Below are positions 40,874 to 52,078 of a stretch of DNA of 64,000 nucleotides, piece after piece (position 1 is the first letter of the stretch; each line of letters starts with the position of its first letter). The position numbers were made by a program, and so were the translations under genes. The DNA is from Flavobacteriales bacterium. GTDB taxonomy: Bacteria; Bacteroidota; Bacteroidia; Flavobacteriales_F; PHOS-HE28. The stretch covers positions 124,001-188,000 of the forward strand of contig JAHBUL010000006.1 in the NCBI GenBank assembly GCA_019638085.1, in the 5' to 3' direction. The notes beneath the pieces were generated by a model. That model searched no databases. It was not told the DNA's origin and saw nothing but the letters and a program-made list of their open reading frames with translations.

Positions 40874-41032
40874 TGCGAACGGACCAGCTCGCCATGTTCG
40901 GCATACACCTTTCCTTGTGCAGCAACACAGACCTTCGCACCTGAAAGGCGGTGGTCAGCTCAGGTGCCACATCATACAACTTCATGGTTCGTCGATCCAG
41001 GACTCCCTAACTTTCCGGTCTTCCTTACACCC
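40874..41032. other. Intergenic region with possible eroded ORF
   Basis: No intact gene. On the minus strand an ATG at 40985 starts KLYDVAPELTTAF, and after a one-base shift the reading is GAKVCVAAQGKVYAEHGELV, with protein-like composition. This might be a decayed small ORF, but there is no homology evidence. On the plus strand TAACTTTC (41008-41015) is a -7 candidate for the next gene. Confidence 0.35.
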
Positions 41033-42808
41033 ATGAGAACCATTCTAGCAACCCTTGCTTTAGGTGCCTTCCTGGTCGCCAATGCACAACAGCAAGGCCT
41101 TCCGCACAAGCTTGCCCCCGAGGAACTCCATCTTATCCCCGCATACAGGGACAGTCGGGCTTCCCTCCAACGCAGTATTCAAGGTCCTCCGGAATTCCCG
41201 GTGCGCACCATGGCCGAATGGGAGGAAGTGCAAAGTTTAGTGATCACATGGACCGGTTTCCCGTCCATCCTGAAACAGATCGTGCGCTACGCTAAGGAGG
41301 AGTGCGAAGTGATCATCGTGTGCGACAACCCTGCAGCGGTCAGCCAGGTATTGAATAACTCAAGCGCTGGCGGTCCCTTGGATGACCTCTCCAACATCAC
41401 TTTTCTCCAAGCCGGGTTCAACAGCATTTGGGTGCGGGATTATGGTGCGGAAACGATCTACCGCAACGAAGTGGACAGCCTGCTTCTGTTGGACTGGATC
41501 TACAATCGGCCCCGGCCTTTGGACGATGTACTTCCGGATGCGATCGCTAGCCTGAAGAACATCCCGATCTATGGCACCACCCAAGCGCCATACGATCTTG
41601 TACACACGGGTGGGAATTTCATGTGTGATGGTGCCGGCACTGCCTTCAGCAGCAACTTGGTATTGGAAGAGAACGGCCCGCAAGGAGGCTTCAACCAGAC
41701 CGTGAAGAGCGCAGCCCAAGTGGACACGTTGATGAGCGAATGGATGGGGATCGACCTGGGGCGCTACATCAAAATGAATACGCTTCCTTACGATGCGATC
41801 CATCACATTGACATGCACATGAAGTTGCTGGATGAGGAGACCCTGTTGGTAGGTGAATTTCCGCAAGGCGTGAGCGATGGTCCTCAGCTGGAGCAGAACC
41901 TCCAAGGGATCATGAATGGCTATGACAATGTGTTCGGTGACCCCTACGACGTGGTGCGTATCCCGATGCCGCCCAGCACCAGTGGTGGTTATGCACCCAG
42001 CGCTTCCTATCGCACCTATGCGAACAATGTATTCATCAACAAAACAGTACTGGTGCCCACCTACCGCACCGAGTATGATACCACCGGCCTTCGGATCCTG
42101 CGCGAGAGCCTGCCGGGCTACCGCGTGGTGGGTATCGATTGCGATGAGGGAGGATCCAACATCATCGCCCAGAGCGGAGCCATCCATTGCATCACCAAGG
42201 CCATCGGGGTGGAGGACCCGTTGTTGATTCGCCACAAAAAGCTGCGCGACACCTACGAGACGGTGACCCCCTATACGGTCAGTGCGTATATCCGCCACCG
42301 CAGTGGCATTGCTTCTGCGGAGCTTTACTGGACAACGGATACGGCACAAGGCTTTATCGCCGTGCCAATGATCGCCGGGGCCGACAATGACTGGACGGCG
42401 GCGATCCCTGCGCAGAGCGCTTCATCCGTCATATTCTACTACATCCGTGCTGTTGCTGAAAATGGTAAAGTGCAGGTCCGTCCCATGGTCGCGCCGGAAG
42501 GCTGGTGGCGTTTCAAGGTGTTGGATCTGGGCACGGCCGTCGCCGACCCGGATGGCCCGTTGATCACCGAAGTGTTCCCGAACCCGACGCAAGGTGTGCT
42601 CGTGGTAACATTGGAGCGGTTCCGCAATGAGCCCGTGCGCGTAGCCTTGTACGATGCCACGGGCCGCCAAGCCCGTGTGTTGCACGATGGCCCTATGTTC
42701 ACGGATGGTAAACTGATCCTGGATATTTCATCCTTGGCTCCGGGTGCCTATGCACTGGTGGCCACCAGCCAACTGGGCAGTTCCACCATGCGGGTGCTGA
42801 AGCAGTGA
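41033..42808 (+). CDS. Secreted agmatine/peptidylarginine deiminase-like protein with T9SS domain
   Basis: A 591-residue protein with a signal peptide (ATLALGAFLVANAQQ). The catalytic domain is of the agmatine deiminase fold (PAD_porph, as in P. gingivalis PPAD). By motif position the catalytic residues are Asp136 (WVRDYG), His258-x-Asp260 (HHIDMH), Asn331/332 (YANNVF) and the nucleophile Cys386 (AIHCIT), all present. GGNFMCDGAGTAFSSN is also a family motif. A mid-region of unknown function and a C-terminal T9SS domain follow (FPNPTQGVLVVTLERFRN, ALYDATGRQARVL, LAPGAYALVA). It may citrullinate arginine of peptides or hydrolyse agmatine; substrate not known from sequence. Single gene ending in a bidirectional terminator. 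Confidence 0.85.
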   Translation: MRTILATLALGAFLVANAQQQGLPHKLAPEELHLIPAYRDSRASLQRSIQGPPEFPVRTMAEWEEVQSLVITWTGFPSILKQIVRYAKEECEVIIVCDNPAAVSQVLNNSSAGGPLDDLSNITFLQAGFNSIWVRDYGAETIYRNEVDSLLLLDWIYNRPRPLDDVLPDAIASLKNIPIYGTTQAPYDLVHTGGNFMCDGAGTAFSSNLVLEENGPQGGFNQTVKSAAQVDTLMSEWMGIDLGRYIKMNTLPYDAIHHIDMHMKLLDEETLLVGEFPQGVSDGPQLEQNLQGIMNGYDNVFGDPYDVVRIPMPPSTSGGYAPSASYRTYANNVFINKTVLVPTYRTEYDTTGLRILRESLPGYRVVGIDCDEGGSNIIAQSGAIHCITKAIGVEDPLLIRHKKLRDTYETVTPYTVSAYIRHRSGIASAELYWTTDTAQGFIAVPMIAGADNDWTAAIPAQSASSVIFYYIRAVAENGKVQVRPMVAPEGWWRFKVLDLGTAVADPDGPLITEVFPNPTQGVLVVTLERFRNEPVRVALYDATGRQARVLHDGPMFTDGKLILDISSLAPGAYALVATSQLGSSTMRVLKQ

Positions 42809-42839
42809 ACTTGAAGGCCCGAACGGATCACCCAAAAAA

Positions 42840-42870
42840 GAAGCCCCGCCGGTCGGACCGGCGGGGCTTC
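42840..42870. terminator. Strong bidirectional terminator
   Basis: A perfect 14-bp stem GAAGCCCCGCCGGT / ACCGGCGGGGCTTC with loop CGG, preceded by AAAAAA (42834-42839) and followed by CTTCAATT. It lies between the convergent deiminase and LPP20-like genes. The A-run gives a T-run for the minus-strand transcript. Confidence 0.88.
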
Positions 42871-42889
42871 CTTCAATTCATGCCTCTCC

Positions 42890-43483
42890 TCACTTCCCCA
42901 TCTTCTCCATCTCCTTGTCGAAGGTCTCCTTGAACTTCTCGTAGTCGTAGTCGATCTTCAACTTATCGTCCTTGCTGAGGCGCTCGTTGTAGGCTGCGAG
43001 CAGGTCCTGCGCACTGAGTTCGATGGCCACGTAGCACTTGTAATTTCCTGTGCCGTCCACCTTCATCATCTTCTCGCAGATGGTACGTGTGCCGGTGAGC
43101 TTCTGGTCCACCACTTCGCGGGTGAGTCCTTCAAAGCGCTCGGCGATCTCCTCCTTGTTGTTCATCTCGCGGCTGTTCACGTAGTTGTCGATCACGCTCT
43201 TCACCTGCGTGTTGATCGCACTGGCCATGTCAGCACGCGCGTTGGAGAGGGCCTTCTTCTTCGCTGTGGCCTGGTCCATGCTCTCGCCGAGGTTGTTGGC
43301 GCGGAAGTTCTTCTCATCGGTAAAGAACTCGGGGCCCGAGCAGAGCACCTTCACTTCGGTCTCGCCACTGGGTGGCTTAGCGGCCTCGGCTGCTTTCTTT
43401 TTGCCTTTGCAGGCGCTCAGCCCGCCAACAAGCATCAAGCCCATGAAGGCGATCGATGCGATCTTGGATGTAGTGGTTCTCAT
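42890..43483 (-). CDS. Small LPP20-like lipoprotein
   Basis: A 197-residue protein with a lipobox (MLVGGLSACKGK). The mature part has LPP20-like features: an Ala-rich helical stretch DQATAKKKALSNARADMASA, then QVKSVIDNYVNSREMNNKEE, and a short YKCYVAIELSAQDLLAAYNE. It is the last gene of a minus-strand group with an LPP20 protein, a CsgG-like protein and a DUF4476 protein. ATG 43483 gives the lipoprotein signal; the frame is open upstream. Predicted to sit in the outer membrane. Function unknown. Confidence 0.78.
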   Translation of the reverse strand: MRTTTSKIASIAFMGLMLVGGLSACKGKKKAAEAAKPPSGETEVKVLCSGPEFFTDEKNFRANNLGESMDQATAKKKALSNARADMASAINTQVKSVIDNYVNSREMNNKEEIAERFEGLTREVVDQKLTGTRTICEKMMKVDGTGNYKCYVAIELSAQDLLAAYNERLSKDDKLKIDYDYEKFKETFDKEMEKMGK

Positions 43484-43551
43484 GGTCTTCGTTTTTTTGG
43501 TGGTTGTGGTTATGTATCTTCCAATGGCGTGCCAAAGTGCGCAATGTAGCG

Positions 43552-45009
43552 TCACTGTTGAAGTAGCGTGTTGATCATGGCGGGCAAAAGATCGTTCCGA
43601 AGGTCCTGCGCGGCCTTTTTGTAGGCATCGATCCCGGCTTTCCGGTAATCGAGTTGGATCCCCTTGATACCCTGCTTGCCGCTTTCGTGCACGACCTCTC
43701 CGCTGCGCTGATCGGTCACCTTGAGCACCTCGTCCAAGGCCACGGTGAAAAAGCCGTTGCTCTCCCCCATTTCCCGGGTGCTTGCATTCATCTCGATGAT
43801 CAAGTCGGCTTCCGTCGGCCGGTCCACTGCACGGAAACCGGTGGCTGTCAGCTCCTGCTTCAGCACCAAGGATAGCGGTGCATCGTTCATGCGTTGACCC
43901 AGATTGCTTTCCGCTCCTTTGAAGAAGACCTTGGGCATCACGCGATCGATGGGCACATGTGCTTCCGTGGCCGTGAGGCTGCCGATAAGTGGTGCAGTGA
44001 ATGCCGGGTCCAGGTCCTTGCTCACCAATGCATCCATATCCAAACGCACCACCACGGCAGGTGCTGGGGCTGTGAGGTCAAGCCGCTGCACGGTGGTGCG
44101 GGCCCGCCCTTCGGCATCGGTGTTCCGGCTCTCGGTGACCTTCCCCACATGCCCCGGATATTCAATGATGATGGGCAATTGAGGCAATGCTTGTGCTCTA
44201 TCCCCATAGACGGCAGTGATCAGCAGTTCCCGTTTGAACCGGTTTGACCAATCCACCACGCAACGCTCCGGAAGTACGGTCAAACGCACTCCGCTTGCCA
44301 TACGCTGCAGATCGTTGAAGAGTTCATTCGCCAAGGGCACTGAGCGGCCTTCCACGGTCACTTGATCATTCTCACCCCAATACTCCTTCATGGCGATCAA
44401 TGCGCGCAGGTCCAGGTCGAATGCGCTCCGGAGGTCACCCTTGCTCAGGCCTGCCTTGGCGCGACCATACAGGTCCGTGGCCTGGTCGATGGCCTTCTGC
44501 TTCCGCTCCGCTTTGATCCGTGCGTGCTCGCTCTTGTCCAACCGGTAGTAGATCCAGTACTGATCCCGATCCTCAAAACTGTCCACCAGCTCATAGCCTT
44601 CGAGGCGCTCCTTGGTGCTGGTATTGATGGTACTGGTGAATTCCTCATCGAACTTGTACTTGCGGTCCAAGGTGTAGAGCAGACTGTTGCCTTCCACGGT
44701 CACGCTGATCTCACTGGCCAGGTCGTTCAGCGCGTTCTTCTTCGCAGCCTCCTGATAGTCGGGCCGTGCCTTGGAGGCTACACCGATGCCGATGTATGCC
44801 ATGCTGGTCACCGGCCTCGCATTCAGCCATGCGGGTCGCTGGACCTCGCTTACTGCAGGGCTCACCACCGGTGCTACGGCTTGCTTCGCCTTGCAAGCGG
44901 AAAGAGAGAAGACCAGAAAGGCGATCCAGAAGGTGGAACTGACGCGACCGCGGCCTCGAAGCCGGGTCATCGCCACCTTTTCTTCCTTCCCTCCCACGTT
45001 CAGATTCAT
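43552..45009 (-). CDS. LPP20-family lipoprotein with large C-terminal domain
   Basis: A 485-residue lipoprotein (lipobox FSLSACKAK, about residue 38 from ATG 45009; ATG at residue 14 is an alternative). The N-terminal part has the LPP20 pattern: YIGIGVASKARPDYQEAAKK, NALNDLASEISVTVEGNSLL, YWIYYRLDKSEHARIKA. The remaining about 300 residues are less recognisable (RSVPLANELFNDLQRMASGV, then VVVRLDMDALVSKDLDPAFT, TGFRAVDRPTEADLIIEMNA) and may bind other envelope parts. Its ATG overlaps the stop of the CsgG-like gene (ATGA), so the two are translationally coupled. Confidence 0.8.
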   Translation of the reverse strand: MNLNVGGKEEKVAMTRLRGRGRVSSTFWIAFLVFSLSACKAKQAVAPVVSPAVSEVQRPAWLNARPVTSMAYIGIGVASKARPDYQEAAKKNALNDLASEISVTVEGNSLLYTLDRKYKFDEEFTSTINTSTKERLEGYELVDSFEDRDQYWIYYRLDKSEHARIKAERKQKAIDQATDLYGRAKAGLSKGDLRSAFDLDLRALIAMKEYWGENDQVTVEGRSVPLANELFNDLQRMASGVRLTVLPERCVVDWSNRFKRELLITAVYGDRAQALPQLPIIIEYPGHVGKVTESRNTDAEGRARTTVQRLDLTAPAPAVVVRLDMDALVSKDLDPAFTAPLIGSLTATEAHVPIDRVMPKVFFKGAESNLGQRMNDAPLSLVLKQELTATGFRAVDRPTEADLIIEMNASTREMGESNGFFTVALDEVLKVTDQRSGEVVHESGKQGIKGIQLDYRKAGIDAYKKAAQDLRNDLLPAMINTLLQQ

Positions 45010-46388
45010 GGCAGCTTGCTCGCGAGTTCCTGTTGGATGGTACCGGCCGCAGCCGCAGAAGTGCTCCGTAACAGTTCGTTGGCGAGTACTGTGGTGCTTT
45101 TCACTTCCCTTGGTGCGGAGAGCAGCGAAGACAGGTCGCGGCGCGCACTGCTGCGCGTATCCACCGTACCATTCTGTTTGGGATAAAGCGCCTTCACGTT
45201 CCCGGAATAGCTGGCATACCATGCATGGTCATCAGCTTCGCGCTCCACCACTTTGCTCAGCAAGACCTGCCCTGTTTCCAAAGAGACCAATTTGAAGCTG
45301 AAGGAGATCATCGCCTTGTTCTCCTTGTAGAATTCCGTGTAGTTCACGGGCTTGTAGCGCGTCACGTATACCGACTCGTTCGTTTCGCTATTGAGTTCCT
45401 TCACCTGATAACTTTCGTAGCCCTCCTTCGTGCTTTTACGGGGACTTCCAGGCACTTCCTGATAGGAGATCACCGTGCCCATGACCACGGCCTGCGCACC
45501 CATCAGCTTACCGGCACTTACCGCAGTGGATTCATCCACCACGCCGGACATTCCCAAGCGTTGCTCATCGAGGATCTTCTGGATGTTGTCCCGGTCCACC
45601 ACGTGGATGAACGGATCGTTGATGTTTGTAAGTGCGGAGGTAACATAGGCTTGGAGCGTGGCGGCCTGCGCCGTCTGCATCTGGTTGCCCGCTACGTTGA
45701 AAGGAAGCACGGCGATGGCGTAGCGGCCCTTATCCACACATTGCTGCCGGAGTGCGGAAGCATCCTTGTAGATAGCGCTGCGCTCCATCACGCGGTTGAG
45801 GTCGGCATAGGCCTTACGGTATTGCCCGCCCGCCAGCGCTGCCTTACCTGAAAGGTACAACGGCTCCAAGTAGGCGATGTCCTGCAGGCTTCCGGCATCC
45901 TTGTACCCCGGTTCCAGCTTACCGATCTTGGCGAACGCCGCCTCCGCTGCCGCATAGTCCTTCTTCTCCAAGAGCTCATGGCCCTGGGTGTACAACTGCA
46001 CCAAATACTCCCCCTTCACCTGTTCGAAATCCGTCGTATAGCTATCCGGGATCTCCAAGCTCACCCCAACGCGTTGTACGCGTTCCTGGTAGTACTTGGC
46101 GTCGAGGTAGGCATTCACCGCAGCTTCCTTGTTGTCCCCCAAGCTGAATGCCTTGAAGAAGGCGCTCAGCTTATCGTTCAGCACCATCTGGCCGGTCTTC
46201 TTCAGGCCGATCTTCGCATCAATGTTCTTCGCGTTACGCACCGCGCTCTGCAAATACATGTCCGCAGCTTCCGCATACATGCCGCTGCCATCCAGCTTGG
46301 CGGCCTTCTTCGAGTACGACTTCGAGCCTGAGCACGCTGCCGTGAACAGAAGAAGGACCAGACCGATGACGAGGTGGAAAGCTTTCAT
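45006..46388 (-). CDS. CsgG-like lipoprotein
   Basis: A 460-residue lipoprotein (lipobox FTAACSGSK). The N-terminal half is helical and TPR-like (AAEAAFAKIGKLEPGYKDAG, KAYADLNRVMERSAIYKDAS). The C-terminal half carries a CsgG-type domain: RYAIAVLPFNVAGNQMQ, VTSALTNINDPFIHVVDRDN, IQKILDEQRLGMSGVVDE and KLMGAQAVVMGTVISYQE. CsgG forms outer-membrane secretion pores for curli; CsgG-like domains in other lineages also serve assembly of surface or periplasmic structures. Here the N-terminal TPR-like region and LPP20 neighbours suggest a distinct envelope complex. Function not established. Confidence 0.8.
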   Translation of the reverse strand: MKAFHLVIGLVLLLFTAACSGSKSYSKKAAKLDGSGMYAEAADMYLQSAVRNAKNIDAKIGLKKTGQMVLNDKLSAFFKAFSLGDNKEAAVNAYLDAKYYQERVQRVGVSLEIPDSYTTDFEQVKGEYLVQLYTQGHELLEKKDYAAAEAAFAKIGKLEPGYKDAGSLQDIAYLEPLYLSGKAALAGGQYRKAYADLNRVMERSAIYKDASALRQQCVDKGRYAIAVLPFNVAGNQMQTAQAATLQAYVTSALTNINDPFIHVVDRDNIQKILDEQRLGMSGVVDESTAVSAGKLMGAQAVVMGTVISYQEVPGSPRKSTKEGYESYQVKELNSETNESVYVTRYKPVNYTEFYKENKAMISFSFKLVSLETGQVLLSKVVEREADDHAWYASYSGNVKALYPKQNGTVDTRSSARRDLSSLLSAPREVKSTTVLANELLRSTSAAAAGTIQQELASKLP

Positions 46389-46418
46389 CTTGGTGGTGAT
46401 GATGGGATCAGGGGAGGA

Positions 46419-47375
46419 TCAACGGCTTTGAATGTAACTGTTCAGTTCATCAATGGAACTGGAGAAGCCGAAGGCGTCATTCACTTTGTAATAGTTGTTC
46501 GTGTCCATCACGTGGTCGTAGGCGAACTTGGCAAAATCCAGCTTACTGTCCTCGAAGCCGAAGAGTTCCATGATGCTCTTTACTTGGGAGGTGGACAAAC
46601 AATTGCTGCCCGCTATCTGCTTGGCCAGCGTGAGCTTGCTATCATCAAAACCCTTTGAATCGATGCTTTTCTTGGCATCGTCGAAATCCGCTGTGGACAT
46701 GGCTTGCCTACAACCACTTACGGTTACCGGGGTTTCCGGTGCCGGTGCCTGTGTGGAAGTACCCGTTGTAGTGGATGAACTATAGGTGGTCGTAGTAGTT
46801 GTCGTGGTGGTGGTTGAAGTACCACCCATGCCATCGGTAACGGCAACATTGAGACCCACCCCGTTCACCCCAATGCTCATGTTCACATTCCCGTCCGGCA
46901 CACCCTCCGTCGTGGTGATGGTGGTAGTGGACTTTGTGGTCGGATGGTCCGTGGCGATCACTTCCTGCGTGCTTGCAGGTGCTGGTGCATCCTCCGTGAA
47001 CTGGCTTGGGGTTGGCTTGGCGGCCGGTTCGGCACTGGCGGTGCCCAAAGGCGCTTGGCCTTGCATGCGGAGCACCTTTGCACCCTTCTTATTGGTGGTA
47101 ATGCGCAAGGTGTATTCCAGGCCCGGCTCCATCCAGCCGTTCTGCTTCAAGGTAGGGATCTGCTTATCCTCGAAATTAACGATCAGCAGAGGTGTTTCAT
47201 TCCTGATCCCCTTAGCGATCACACGGGAGGCGGGCACTTCGTTCTTCACATCCCCATCGATCACCAAGGTGAACTTGTCCCCTTCATCGGAGAAGACGAC
47301 AATGTCGCTGGTTTGTGCACGAAGGCCTGAAACAAGGGCAAAAGCTGCGAAAATGAAGGCGTAGTGGCGTTCCAT
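46419..47375 (-). CDS. Exported DUF4476 protein with Thr-rich linker
   Basis: A 318-residue protein with a signal peptide (AAFALVSGLRAQ). The N-terminal domain is beta-rich (DIVVFSDEGDKFTLVIDGDV, then GWMEPGLEYTLRITTNKKGA). A long linker is low complexity, including a run of about ten Thr followed by Tyr/Ser-rich residues, which suits exposure outside the cell. The C-terminus is the DUF4476 domain (FDDAKKSIDSKGFDDSKLT, SNCLSTSQVKSIMELFGFED, LDFAKFAYDHV), a helical tail frequent in Bacteroidota. First gene of the operon with the CsgG-like and LPP20 genes. TACATTCG (47396-47403) is a -7 candidate. Confidence 0.8.
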   Translation of the reverse strand: MERHYAFIFAAFALVSGLRAQTSDIVVFSDEGDKFTLVIDGDVKNEVPASRVIAKGIRNETPLLIVNFEDKQIPTLKQNGWMEPGLEYTLRITTNKKGAKVLRMQGQAPLGTASAEPAAKPTPSQFTEDAPAPASTQEVIATDHPTTKSTTTITTTEGVPDGNVNMSIGVNGVGLNVAVTDGMGGTSTTTTTTTTTTYSSSTTTGTSTQAPAPETPVTVSGCRQAMSTADFDDAKKSIDSKGFDDSKLTLAKQIAGSNCLSTSQVKSIMELFGFEDSKLDFAKFAYDHVMDTNNYYKVNDAFGFSSSIDELNSYIQSR

Positions 47376-47558: not shown

Positions 47559-48266
47559 ATGATCCAACTGAAGAACATCCACAAATCCTACCACATGGGC
47601 AGCAATGTCCTGCAGGTATTGAAAGGCATCGACCTGCACATCCGGAAGGGCGAGATGGTGAGCATCATGGGCTCTTCAGGTTCGGGGAAAAGCACACTGC
47701 TGAACATCATCGGCATACTGGACAATGCGGATAGCGGAGAGTATCTGTTGGACGGACTGGCGATCAAGAACCTCACCGAGACCCGGGCCGCGGAGCTGCG
47801 CAGCAAATACTTGGGGTTTGTGTTCCAGAGCTTCAATCTGATCAACTTCAAGAACGCCATGGAGAACGTGGCCCTGCCGCTATACTACCAAGGGGTTTCC
47901 ACGCGGAAGCGGAATGAATTGGCCGTGGACATGTTGGCCAGCGTGGGCCTGAAGGACTGGGCACGCCACATGCCGAATGAATTGAGCGGAGGGCAGAAAC
48001 AACGTGTGGCCATCGCCCGTGCACTGATCGCCAACCCCAAGGTGATACTGGCTGACGAGCCCACGGGGGCCTTGGACAGCACCACCAGCGATGAGGTGAT
48101 GGAACTCTTGAAGAAGGTGAACAAGGAACTCGGGATGACGTTGGTGATCGTGACCCATGAACCCAATGTCGCAGCACTTACCGAGCGCATCATCCGCTTG
48201 AAGGATGGCGAGATCGAAAGCCACGATGGGCAACCCATAATTGAGCCGGCACATGTTCGACGCTGA
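47559..48266 (+). CDS. ABC transporter ATP-binding protein, MacB/LolD type
   Basis: A 235-residue ABC ATPase. Walker A GSSGSGKSTLLN, signature LSGGQKQRVAIARAL, Walker B VILADEPTGALD and the H-loop IVTHE are all intact. By sequence it is of the MacB/LolD class, which powers MacB-type permeases in three-component efflux or lipoprotein release. It is the first gene of a unit with two FtsX/MacB-type permeases and a MacA-like adaptor, so it likely drives efflux of an unknown substrate. The next gene starts inside its last codons (14-bp overlap, ATG 48253). Confidence 0.93.
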   Translation: MIQLKNIHKSYHMGSNVLQVLKGIDLHIRKGEMVSIMGSSGSGKSTLLNIIGILDNADSGEYLLDGLAIKNLTETRAAELRSKYLGFVFQSFNLINFKNAMENVALPLYYQGVSTRKRNELAVDMLASVGLKDWARHMPNELSGGQKQRVAIARALIANPKVILADEPTGALDSTTSDEVMELLKKVNKELGMTLVIVTHEPNVAALTERIIRLKDGEIESHDGQPIIEPAHVRR

Positions 48267-49497
48267 GAAATGGGCGGAGATATTCGACACCATCAGCAAG
48301 AACAAATTGCGGACGGTGCTCACCGGCTTCAGTGTGTTCTGGGGGATCTTCATGCTGATCATTCTCTTGGGGACCGGGAAAGGATTGAGCAACGGTTTCT
48401 CGTACAACTTCCGGAACACGGCGAAGAACACCATTGACATCTGGGGTGGCCAGACCACCAAACCGTGGCAGGGCCTTGCGGTGGACCGGGAGATCCAACT
48501 GGATACGCGCGATGTGGAGGCGATGCGCACCGCGATCCCTGGGCTTGAGCACATTACCGGCAACCTGCGTGTTTGGCGCGGGTCAAGCCAGCTGAGCCGT
48601 GGCAAGAATTACGGGAATTTCACTATCAGCGGTATAACTCCGGAATTCACCGAGCTGCAGGACCAACAGATCCTCCAAGGCCGGTTCATCAACGAAGTGG
48701 ACCAGATCCACACGCGTAAAGTGATCGTCCTGGCTGAGGATTCACGGGATGCCTTGTTCAAGGGCGAGGACCCGATCGATCAGTGGGTGCAGGTGAACAA
48801 CATCCCCTTCCAAGTGGTGGGCGTATATCGCTTTGAAAGCAGCGGTCGCGGGATGAACCAGAACAGCCAGGTCTTCATTCCCTTAAGCGTAGTGCAACGG
48901 GTTTTCAATGCGCAGCAGAGCGTGGATAAGATCACCTTCAGCTTCCTGGATGGATCGATACAAGGTGCAGAACAGGCAGCGAAGCGTGCAGTGGCCGTGC
49001 TGGCCTCCCGGCACCGCTTCGATCCCACGGATGACCGTGCGGTATACGTGAACAACAACGTGGAGAATGCGGAGGTTTTCGGGAAGATCTTCGGCGGGAT
49101 CAATGCCTTCCTGTGGATCATCGGCATCGGAACCATTGTTGCGGGCATCGTGGGGGTAAGCAACATCATGCTGATCGTGGTGAAGGAACGCACCCGCGAG
49201 ATCGGCATCCGCAAGGCACTGGGTGCCAAGCCCGCTGACGTGGTGGGCCAAGTGATCATGGAAGCGATCTTCGTGAGCGCGGTGGCGGGCTATTTCGGGC
49301 TGGTCTGCGGTGTGGGCCTGCTGGAATTCATCTCAGCCAATGTGCCCGGCAACGAAATGTTCCGGGATCCCACGGTCGATATTGGCGTAGCTCTTTGGGC
49401 CACGGCAGTCTTGGTAGTGGCCGGTGCATTGGCAGGACTGATCCCCGCGCGGCGAGCAGCAGCCATACGACCCATTGAAGCACTTCGGGACGAATGA
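48253..49497 (+). CDS. MacB-like ABC permease (first copy)
   Basis: A 414-residue permease. An N-terminal helix (NKLRTVLTGFSVFWGIFMLI) precedes a large periplasmic domain of about 230 residues. The C-terminal FtsX core has three helices; it contains GTIVAGIVGVSNIMLIVVKE, RTREIGIRKALGAKPADV and AGYFGLVCGVGLLEF. This is the MacB permease layout without a fused ATPase. The second copy at 49684 has the same layout, so the pair probably forms a heterodimer with the shared ATPase. The ATG at 48253 is coupled to the ATPase gene by overlap. Confidence 0.9.
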   Translation: MFDAEKWAEIFDTISKNKLRTVLTGFSVFWGIFMLIILLGTGKGLSNGFSYNFRNTAKNTIDIWGGQTTKPWQGLAVDREIQLDTRDVEAMRTAIPGLEHITGNLRVWRGSSQLSRGKNYGNFTISGITPEFTELQDQQILQGRFINEVDQIHTRKVIVLAEDSRDALFKGEDPIDQWVQVNNIPFQVVGVYRFESSGRGMNQNSQVFIPLSVVQRVFNAQQSVDKITFSFLDGSIQGAEQAAKRAVAVLASRHRFDPTDDRAVYVNNNVENAEVFGKIFGGINAFLWIIGIGTIVAGIVGVSNIMLIVVKERTREIGIRKALGAKPADVVGQVIMEAIFVSAVAGYFGLVCGVGLLEFISANVPGNEMFRDPTVDIGVALWATAVLVVAGALAGLIPARRAAAIRPIEALRDE

Positions 49498-49521
49498 GAA
49501 TGGGAAACCGCAAAGACGCAA

Positions 49522-49617
49522 GGTACTTGGTACCGGGTACCGGGTACCGGGTATTGGGTACCGCCTACTTGTCGTTCCTCGCGGCTTTGTACCCTGTCCC
49601 CAATACCCTGTACCCAA
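49522..49617. repeat. Heptamer array with inverted partner inside an operon (element D)
   Basis: Six heptamers run without a gap at 49522-49563: GGTACTT, three GGTACCG, GGTATTG, GGTACCG. A 26-bp gap follows, then four heptamers in the opposite sense (TACCCTG, TCCCCAA, TACCCTG, TACCCAA; 49590-49617). The parts can pair into a long hairpin. The phrases CGCAAAGACGCAA (49509-49521) and CCGTGCCTCCGTGCC (49648-49662) beside it are also repeat-like. It lies between the two permease genes. Confidence 0.85.
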
Positions 49618-49683
49618 CATCGTTCCGTGCTAACACGCTCTTCCCCGTGCCTCCGTGCCTGCGTGGTGTAAAACCAGCCCCCC

Positions 49684-50928
49684 ATGTTCGATAGTGAGCG
49701 CTGGAGCGAGATCTGGGTCACGCTCACCCGCAATAAATTACGGAGCGGGCTCACCATGTTCGGTGTGTTCTGGGGCATCTTCATGCTGGTGATCATGCTC
49801 GGCATGGGCAGGGGCCTGAGCAACGGTGTGTTGGGGGGATTCAGCGGCTGGGCCACGAACAGTTTCTTCATGTGGACCCAGAGCACATCCGTTCCTTACG
49901 CCGGTTTCAAACGCGGACGCCGGTTCAATTTCGACAACAGCGATATCGCGACCATCAAGGCCATTCCGGGGGTGGACCAAGTGGCTCCACGGTTGCAGCT
50001 CGGCGGCTATCGGGGGGCGAACAACGTGAACTACAAGGACAAGAACGGCGGCTTCAGCGTGAATGGCGATATGCCCTCGATCCTTCATTTCCAGAGCGCG
50101 AACATCACCGAAGGACGGTTCCTGAACGAGAAGGACATCAGTGATGAGCGGAAGGTGTGCGTGCTAGGGCCGGATGTGGTGAAGACGCTGTTCGGCATGG
50201 AAGACCCCATGGGCAAGTACATCCGGATCCAAGGGGTCTATTTCCAAGTGGTGGGCCTGCATGTACCGAAGGCATCGGCCATGCGCGACGATGGGCAAGC
50301 CAGCACCATCTACATCCCCTTCAGCACGTTCCAGAAAGCGTTCAACAGCATGAACATCGTGCATTGGTTCAGCATTAGCGCCAAGCCGGGCGTGAAAGTG
50401 TCCGACATCGAGGAGCGGGCGAAAAAGGAAATGGCCAAGCGCCACAAGGTCTCGCCGGACGATCCCTTGGCATTCGGTGGCTTCAACATGCAGGAGATGT
50501 ATGACAAGATGAACATGCTCTTCATTGCCATCGCCGCGTTGAGCTGGTTCGTGGGCACGCTCACGCTGATCGCCGGGGTGATCGGCATCAGCAACATCAT
50601 GCTGGTGATCGTGAAGGAACGCACCAAGGAGATCGGCATCCGACGTAGCATCGGTGCGAGACCTGGGAACATTACGGTACAGATCATGCTCGAAGCGCTT
50701 ACACTCACCTTCGTAGCAGGCTACTTCGGCCTGGTGGGAGGCATCGGTGTTCTCCAGCTCATCAACTCCATCCAGATCGACTCCGGCTTCTTCACCAACC
50801 CGGAAGTGGATCTCAACGTTGCGCTCACCGCTCTTGTCATCCTTATCATCAGCGGGCTGATCGCCGGGTACATCCCTGCGAAACGCGCATTAAGCATTAA
50901 ACCCGTGGACGCCCTCCGGGCGGAGTAG
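49684..50928 (+). CDS. MacB-like ABC permease (second copy)
   Basis: A 414-residue paralogue of the 48253 permease with the same length and layout: KLRSGLTMFGVFWGIFMLVI at the start, a periplasmic domain, then GTLTLIAGVIGISNIMLVIV, RTKEIGIRRSIGARPGN and AGYFGLVGGIGVLQL. The start is ATG 49684, just after the heptamer-rich spacer of about 185 bp that follows the first permease. The spacer may reduce or alter translation between the two copies. The adaptor gene follows 46 bp later. Heterodimer partner is the most likely role. Confidence 0.9.
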   Translation: MFDSERWSEIWVTLTRNKLRSGLTMFGVFWGIFMLVIMLGMGRGLSNGVLGGFSGWATNSFFMWTQSTSVPYAGFKRGRRFNFDNSDIATIKAIPGVDQVAPRLQLGGYRGANNVNYKDKNGGFSVNGDMPSILHFQSANITEGRFLNEKDISDERKVCVLGPDVVKTLFGMEDPMGKYIRIQGVYFQVVGLHVPKASAMRDDGQASTIYIPFSTFQKAFNSMNIVHWFSISAKPGVKVSDIEERAKKEMAKRHKVSPDDPLAFGGFNMQEMYDKMNMLFIAIAALSWFVGTLTLIAGVIGISNIMLVIVKERTKEIGIRRSIGARPGNITVQIMLEALTLTFVAGYFGLVGGIGVLQLINSIQIDSGFFTNPEVDLNVALTALVILIISGLIAGYIPAKRALSIKPVDALRAE

Positions 50929-50974
50929 GGGCGGAAGACCTTTCGCCCATACCCTGCCCAAGCAAACCCTCAAC

Positions 50975-52078
50975 ATGAAAAAAGCCCTCAAGTACATCAT
51001 CCTGATCCTGCTCGGTTTCCTCTTCATATGGACGCTCTGGTTCCTCTACCAAAAGAGCGTGACCAAGGAGCCTGAATACAAGGTGGTGAAGCCCAAAGTG
51101 AGCACGATCGTGAAGAAGACCGTAGCGAACGGCACCATTGAGCCGCGGCAGGAGATCGACATCAAACCGGTGGTGAGCGGGGTGATCCGGCAGCTCTTCG
51201 TGGAAGCCGGACAAAAAGTGAAGGAAGGGGACAAATTGGCCACCATCCAGATCGTGCCCGACATGCTTTCCTTGAACCAAGCGGAGAGCCGGGTGAACAG
51301 TTCCGCCATCGCGGTGACCAACGCGCAAATGAACTTCGACAGGAACAAGCCCTTGGCGGATAAGGGGGTGATCTCGGCCAGCGAAATGCAGACCTATGAC
51401 ATTGCGCTGCGCAACGCCAAGCAGGAACAAAGCGCTGCCCAGGATGCACTGCAACTGGTGCGCGACGGCATCAGCAAGACCAGTGGCAGCGCCAGCAACA
51501 CCATTGTACGCAGCACCATCACCGGCATGGTGCTGGACGTGCCCGTGAAGGTGGGCACCAGCGTGATCGAGCGGAACAACTTCAACGAAGGCACCACCAT
51601 AGCCACCGTGGCGGACATGAATGATCTGATCTTCAAGGGCAACGTGGATGAAAGCGAAGTGGGCAAGGTCCGCCTCGAGATGCCTGTGGTGATCACCGTG
51701 GGCGCCATTGACAGCACCACTTGGGATGCCAACTTGGAATACATCGCACCGAAGGGCGTGGAGGTGAACGGCGCCATCCAGTTCGAGATCCGCGCGGCCG
51801 TAAAGGTGAAGGAAGGTCAGACCCTGCGTGCCGGGTACAGCGCCAACGCCGATATCGTGCTGGATCGCAGGGACAGTGTGCTCACCATCCCGGAGAGCGT
51901 GATCACATTCAGCCCGAAAGGTGATAGTGCGTTCGTGGAGGTGAAGAACAAGGAAACGTGGGACAAGACCTACGTCAGGACAGGCCTGAGTGATGGAGTG
52001 AACATCGAATTGCTCGGTGGCATAAGCGACACGACCTCCTTGAAAGGTGCCCTGAAGGTGGATGAGCCGAAGCCATAA
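50975..52078 (+). CDS. MacA-like periplasmic adaptor (HlyD/RND family)
   Basis: A 367-residue membrane-fusion protein. An N-terminal helix anchors it (KYIILILLGFLFIWTLWFLY). A lipoyl/hairpin region contains KPVVSGVIRQLFVEAGQKVK, a coiled coil of about 70 residues (ESRVNSSAIAVTNAQMNFDR, LRNAKQEQSAAQDALQLVRD) and the returning lipoyl half (TGMVLDVPVKVGTSVIE). A beta barrel and a membrane-proximal domain follow. It links the inner-membrane permeases to an outer-membrane channel. No TolC-type gene lies beside the operon, so the channel would come from elsewhere. Last gene before the serine hydrolase. Confidence 0.92.
   Translation: MKKALKYIILILLGFLFIWTLWFLYQKSVTKEPEYKVVKPKVSTIVKKTVANGTIEPRQEIDIKPVVSGVIRQLFVEAGQKVKEGDKLATIQIVPDMLSLNQAESRVNSSAIAVTNAQMNFDRNKPLADKGVISASEMQTYDIALRNAKQEQSAAQDALQLVRDGISKTSGSASNTIVRSTITGMVLDVPVKVGTSVIERNNFNEGTTIATVADMNDLIFKGNVDESEVGKVRLEMPVVITVGAIDSTTWDANLEYIAPKGVEVNGAIQFEIRAAVKVKEGQTLRAGYSANADIVLDRRDSVLTIPESVITFSPKGDSAFVEVKNKETWDKTYVRTGLSDGVNIELLGGISDTTSLKGALKVDEPKP

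Follow-up and report, generated by a model that had tools for sequence, protein, structure and literature searches.

Most known rings of lipoproteins with LPP20 and CsgG folds belong to flagellar motors, curli and a few exporters. The Vibrio H-ring of FlgO, FlgP and FlgT and the Campylobacter basal disk of FlgP both involve outer-membrane-associated proteins of this kind, and a study of the Campylobacter motor reported a link between ring formation by FlgP/FlgT-family proteins and an insert at one site of the LPP20 domain (PMC12222027). Additionally, PqiC and PelC are described as lipoprotein toroids or rings (PMC10897342, PMC12141448), with the PelC ring placed on the PelB channel (PMC12141448). 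Further points of comparison are provided by the curli channel CsgG, a lipoprotein, and by the outer-membrane lipoprotein LpoB. No description of LPP20 and CsgG together, or of such genes in Bacteroidota, was found in the open-access literature; the individual domains are known, whereas their combination appears to be undescribed in the literature searched.

Such a combination is encoded by an operon located in the window analysed here, a stretch of 64,000 nucleotides of Flavobacteriales DNA. The features of the locus are as follows.

Gene A, 46419-47375, minus strand: secreted DUF4476 protein of 318 residues, accessory and outside the conserved core.
Gene B, 45006-46388, minus strand: lipoprotein (Cys19) with a TPR-like region (residues 22-221) and a CsgG-like domain (residues 222-460; 45009-45725).
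Gene C, 43552-45009, minus strand: lipoprotein (Cys39) of 485 residues with LPP20, Ig/macroglobulin-like and TolB-N/CsgG/FlgT-like domains.
Gene D, 42890-43483, minus strand: small lipoprotein (Cys25) with a sub-threshold LPP20 domain (residues 72-148).
ATGA overlap, 45006-45009, minus strand: 4 bp shared by the stop of B and the start of C.
Rho-independent terminator, 42834-42871, minus strand: 15-bp stem and T run, between convergent genes.
MacAB-type genes, 47559-52078, plus strand: divergent genes immediately upstream of the operon, encoding an ABC ATPase, two FtsX-like permeases and a membrane-fusion protein.

The initial annotation had placed four genes in tight order on one strand, ending at a strong terminator and including three lipoboxes, and each of these points was recovered: the coordinates agree, the spacing consists of a 30-bp gap between A and B, the ATGA overlap between B and C and a 68-bp gap between C and D, the terminator 3' of D has a predicted energy of -32.1 kcal/mol (z -5.1), and lipoboxes are present in B (AAC-SGSK), C (SAC-KAK) and D (SAC-KGK). 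Because it lies between convergent genes, the terminator may serve both directions. The convergent gene on its far side (40964-42808, plus strand) encodes an agmatine-deiminase-like protein with a C-terminal stretch resembling a type IX sorting domain. No RNA families were found in the operon region. The order A-B-C(-D) and the strand are kept in 22 of 22 related loci in public genomes, wherever the contig is long enough, so the operon reflects more than chance; the nearest public relative is a Flavobacteriales metagenome-assembled genome (91% for B). At the B-C junction, the relatives carry ATGA in 12 of 21 cases and GTGA in 5 more, and the overlap is suggestive of translational coupling.

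The four genes do not, however, form a single conserved system as initially proposed. Gene A encodes an N-terminal beta-rich domain, a Thr-rich linker at about residues 142-214 (already noted in the initial annotation) and a C-terminal DUF4476 domain at residues 226-314 (46434-46700; 82.2 bits against a cut-off of 22.5), preceded by a cleavable Sec signal ending in AQ and lacking a lipobox; a search of A for the Bacteroidota-type O-glycosylation motif found none. Since, apart from a handful of other genomes, it is restricted to the home genus, and is absent from most B-bearing genomes outside the home genus, A was ruled out as a core part and is a local, lineage-specific addition to B, C and D.

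The remaining three genes constitute a conserved module, kept even when its members separate on the chromosome. Profile searches of 396 Bacteroidia genomes recovered B in 99, C in 89 and D in 95, with all three present in 84 genomes from 14 families. B and C lie in one place in most families: B, C and D are found together in families f1, f33, f40, f51 and f73 and in the module genomes of f49; B and C adjoin, with D elsewhere, in f5, f11 and f28; and C and D adjoin, with B elsewhere, in f10. Fisher p values for co-occurrence range from 1e-61 to 1e-78, which is an overstatement given that the genomes are related, and the differently broken linkage across families is the stronger evidence: because every link is lost in one family or another while the three genes persist, a joint function of B, C and D is very probable. 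At the thresholds used for the searches, the three are not an obligate set in the strict sense, since 13 genomes (in f28, f49, f10 and f2) carry B alone and family f14 (G047, G175, G220 and G388) has adjacent C and D with no B found, possibly a two-lipoprotein version. Outside the class, 5 of 287 genomes sampled from the phylum carry C. The possibility that the genes lie apart in other genomes had been raised as a test in the initial annotation; B, C and D stay together across the class. When the neighbours of B-C-D loci were clustered, no family shared across host families was found, and the neighbouring genes give no functional clue. The MacAB-type genes were rejected as part of the system, as they adjoin the operon in only part of the home genus.

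Protein B matches Pfam CsgG at 54.9 bits (cut-off 20.8), as do 22 of 22 homologues. The TPR-like N-terminus reported in the initial annotation is weak from the single sequence (TPR_2, E 0.19) but is borne out by 21 of 22 homologues (best 7e-8) and by the structural model (mean pLDDT 87.9), in which residues 22-221 are helical and TPR-like and are followed by an alpha/beta domain. Structural comparison of residues 222-460 gave Z 15.1 with DUF330 (2iqi; 128 aligned, 2.7 Å), Z 14.6 with FlgT (3w1e; 148 aligned, 3.0 Å), Z 14.4 with PelC (5t11; 128 aligned, 2.4 Å) and Z 12.8 with CsgG (6lqh; 174 aligned, 6.3 Å), Z values that differ by 1 or less being regarded as tied. Judged by the model, the C-terminal domain of B thus appears closest to ring-forming, periplasm-facing proteins of the DUF330/PqiC, FlgT and PelC types, with CsgG further away; LpoB, TolB-N and LptE are also in the list of fold matches. 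Sequence searches of the PDB with A, B, C and D gave no significant match.

Protein C (model mean pLDDT 79.4) combines an LPP20 domain at residues 59-158 (44536-44835; 43.2 bits against a cut-off of 25.9, with 18 of 18 homologues matching), a helical hairpin, an Ig/macroglobulin-like domain at about residues 240-325 and a C-terminal TolB-N/CsgG/FlgT-like domain at residues 349-484 (43558-43965). The last of these superposes on CsgG (4q79; Z 11.2, 121 aligned, 3.4 Å), PelC (Z 10.5) and FlgT in the LPHT ring (8z5n; Z 10.1, 124 aligned, 2.8 Å). When FlgT 3w1e is laid over residues 70 to 485 of C, the overall deviation is 25 Å, as single domains fit and their arrangement does not. Within the LPP20 domain, a conserved insert of 38 residues (102-139), modelled with low confidence (pLDDT 33-58), separates a helix (85-101) from the second strand (140-146), the same site at which the insert of FlgP/FlgT-family proteins is found.

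Of the two LPP20-type lipoproteins named in the initial annotation, C is upheld, whereas D, at 19.5 bits, stays below the cut-off of 25.9, with 14 of 19 homologues matching at E 0.1 or better (best 1.2e-4). D is nevertheless the best conserved of the four genes, and carries a 41-residue stretch that seems comparable to the LPP20 insert of C and includes 21 columns of at least 90% identity among 31 sequences. A second, diverged D-like gene is present in the window's genome (contig C36:62765-63244, E 2e-21), and two D-type genes also occur in home-genus genomes and several other families.

Taken against the flagellar systems, the locus likewise encodes three proteins associated with the outer membrane, of which C, and probably D, share the LPP20/SHS2 domain with its insert after the helix, and B and C share the fold of the FlgT-like domain. 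The locus differs from these systems in the TPR arm of B and the Ig/macroglobulin-like domain of C. The trio is not flagellar, since FlgH is absent from the window's own genome and from 80 of 80 module genomes; additionally, no sequence in the home-genus alignments has a listed match to Pfam FlgO or FlgT. PelC and PqiC/DUF330, outer-membrane lipoproteins reported as ring-forming, are among the closest folds to the C-terminal domain of B, but B differs in its TPR arm and long hairpin, the trio includes two LPP20 partners, and no pel or pqi/MCE genes were seen beside the operon.

A periplasm-facing side, as in the H-ring and basal disk, is also predicted here. In Bacteroidota, the export signal of surface lipoproteins consists of acidic residues that closely follow the lipid cysteine (PMC5080379). 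Two acidic residues at positions +2 to +6 were found in none of the B, C and D sequences examined, a scan whose outcome is unaffected by a few rows with a wrong or missing cysteine, and D is strongly basic just after the lipid cysteine. Because this signal is absent, B, C and D are predicted to face the periplasm, and surface exposure is not supported for these three proteins.

With nearly even confidence, we favour the reading that B, C and D assemble into a conserved complex of three lipoproteins on the periplasmic side of the outer membrane, in which B and/or C make a ring or collar and D is packed in or around it, with no flagellum involved. A ring or scaffold is more likely than a secretion pore. 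We infer the ring of B and/or C purely from fold kinship: both share the fold of the ring-forming PelC, PqiC/DUF330, FlgT and CsgG, and the LPP20 insert of C matches the segment tied to FlgP/FlgT ring formation, while the reading is weakened by proteins of the same fold (LpoB, TolB-N and LptE) that have other roles. In such a complex, the CsgG/FlgT-like domains of B and/or C would mediate oligomerisation, giving a ring or collar beneath the outer membrane that the FlgP-like D would fill or surround. The TPR arm of B and the Ig-like domain of C would reach into the periplasm and hold a partner, which could be a channel, another machine or the cell wall itself. This periplasmic or outer-membrane partner would be encoded away from the operon, A would serve as a lineage-specific secreted partner, and the whole would operate without a flagellum but otherwise much as the PelC/PqiC collars or the FlgO/FlgP/FlgT H-ring do. 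If this is true, the presence of the trio in about one fifth of the Bacteroidia sampled, in the absence of flagella and curli, would imply a wider envelope role for such rings, and the three genes offer a defined set for deletion and structural studies in a phylum where the organisation of the outer membrane differs from that of E. coli. Considerably more speculative is the proposal that they represent a new Bacteroidota envelope machine, a flagellum-independent outer-membrane ring or disk of three FlgP/FlgT/CsgG-fold lipoproteins, possibly near the source of the H-ring and basal disk.

The next best guess, although an unlikely one, is that B, C and D serve as the collar of an outer-membrane channel that is encoded elsewhere and devoted to polysaccharide export or lipid transport, in the manner of PelC or PqiC. 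The kinship of B with both types of fold would suit this, as would the PelC ring on PelB: the periplasmic part of PelB consists of TPRs, and B unites TPRs and a PelC-like domain in one chain. Against it, the neighbours annotated around B-C-D included no exporter, polymerase or MCE gene that is conserved there from family to family, and the association with divergent MacAB-type genes is confined to part of the home genus.

It is improbable that B acts as a genuine outer-membrane channel of the CsgG type, secreting A or some other protein while C and D assist in gating or assembly. The Pfam CsgG match is well above the cut-off, Foldseek alone, unlike the Z ranking, places CsgG on top, and B shares with CsgG the lipoprotein character, the alpha/beta core fold and inserts at both hairpin positions, the first of which is modelled as a long confident hairpin (317-332/339-369); furthermore, a secreted protein, A, lies in the same operon. 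The second hairpin is nevertheless not predicted, residues 394-412 being mostly coil, and the pore-like CsgG of the initial annotation is not supported, as the model has one long hairpin rather than two and the best folds by Z are non-pore ring proteins. Compared with 26 canonical CsgG proteins from E. coli and Bacteroidota, the first insert of B is longer (56 vs 31 residues) and more charged (0.30 vs 0.16), and both inserts are less lipophilic, although the lipophilic-face measure is weak evidence, as it does not distinguish CsgG from its own shuffles and reports composition, not strand pattern. B also lacks direct similarity to E. coli CsgG (hhalign probability 1.6%), and profile comparisons of B with E. 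coli CsgG and with C gave no usable signal. At the level of the window's genome, E. coli CsgG has no match at E 0.001, whereas other Bacteroidota have proteins 40-49% identical to it, and CsgF (PF10614) has none either, with the E. coli control positive. The limited distribution of A among B genomes outside the home genus argues in the same direction. Of the separate outer-membrane assembly or export complex initially suggested, the separate envelope complex is supported, as neither CsgF nor a match to E. coli CsgG was found in the genome, and a pore is not supported.

Slightly more doubtful still is a role of B as an LpoB-like activator that crosses the cell wall to contact a peptidoglycan synthase, C and D forming its base at the outer membrane. 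The LpoB profile matches 22 of 22 B homologues weakly (best 2.9e-4), the core fold corresponds (Z 9.6, 112 aligned, 3.1 Å), and a TPR arm would suit contact with a distant partner; B itself, however, scores 18.5 bits against a curated cut-off of 22.3, the structural alignment ends at residue 385 while the domain of B runs to 460, leaving TPR and C-terminal parts as extras, and the two LPP20 partners would be left unexplained. An accessory function in type IX secretion or gliding is very improbable, the presence of SprA in all module genomes tested being uninformative because it is equally present in all tested genomes without the module (80 of 80 in total).

Related genes are also found elsewhere in the phylum. 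Canonical CsgG, 40-49% identical to the E. coli protein, occurs in other Bacteroidota (loci L122-L146), and none of 15 Bacteroidia genomes carrying it is listed with B, C or D, some of the 15 lying outside the module survey. A shorter B paralogue of about 400 residues, which matches B to about residue 312 and lacks the C-terminal part, is absent from the window's own genome and present in many home-genus genomes (L112, L113 and L114). Two D homologues (G079:C10:168177-168749 and G336:C33:83817-84389) each contain one in-frame TAA.
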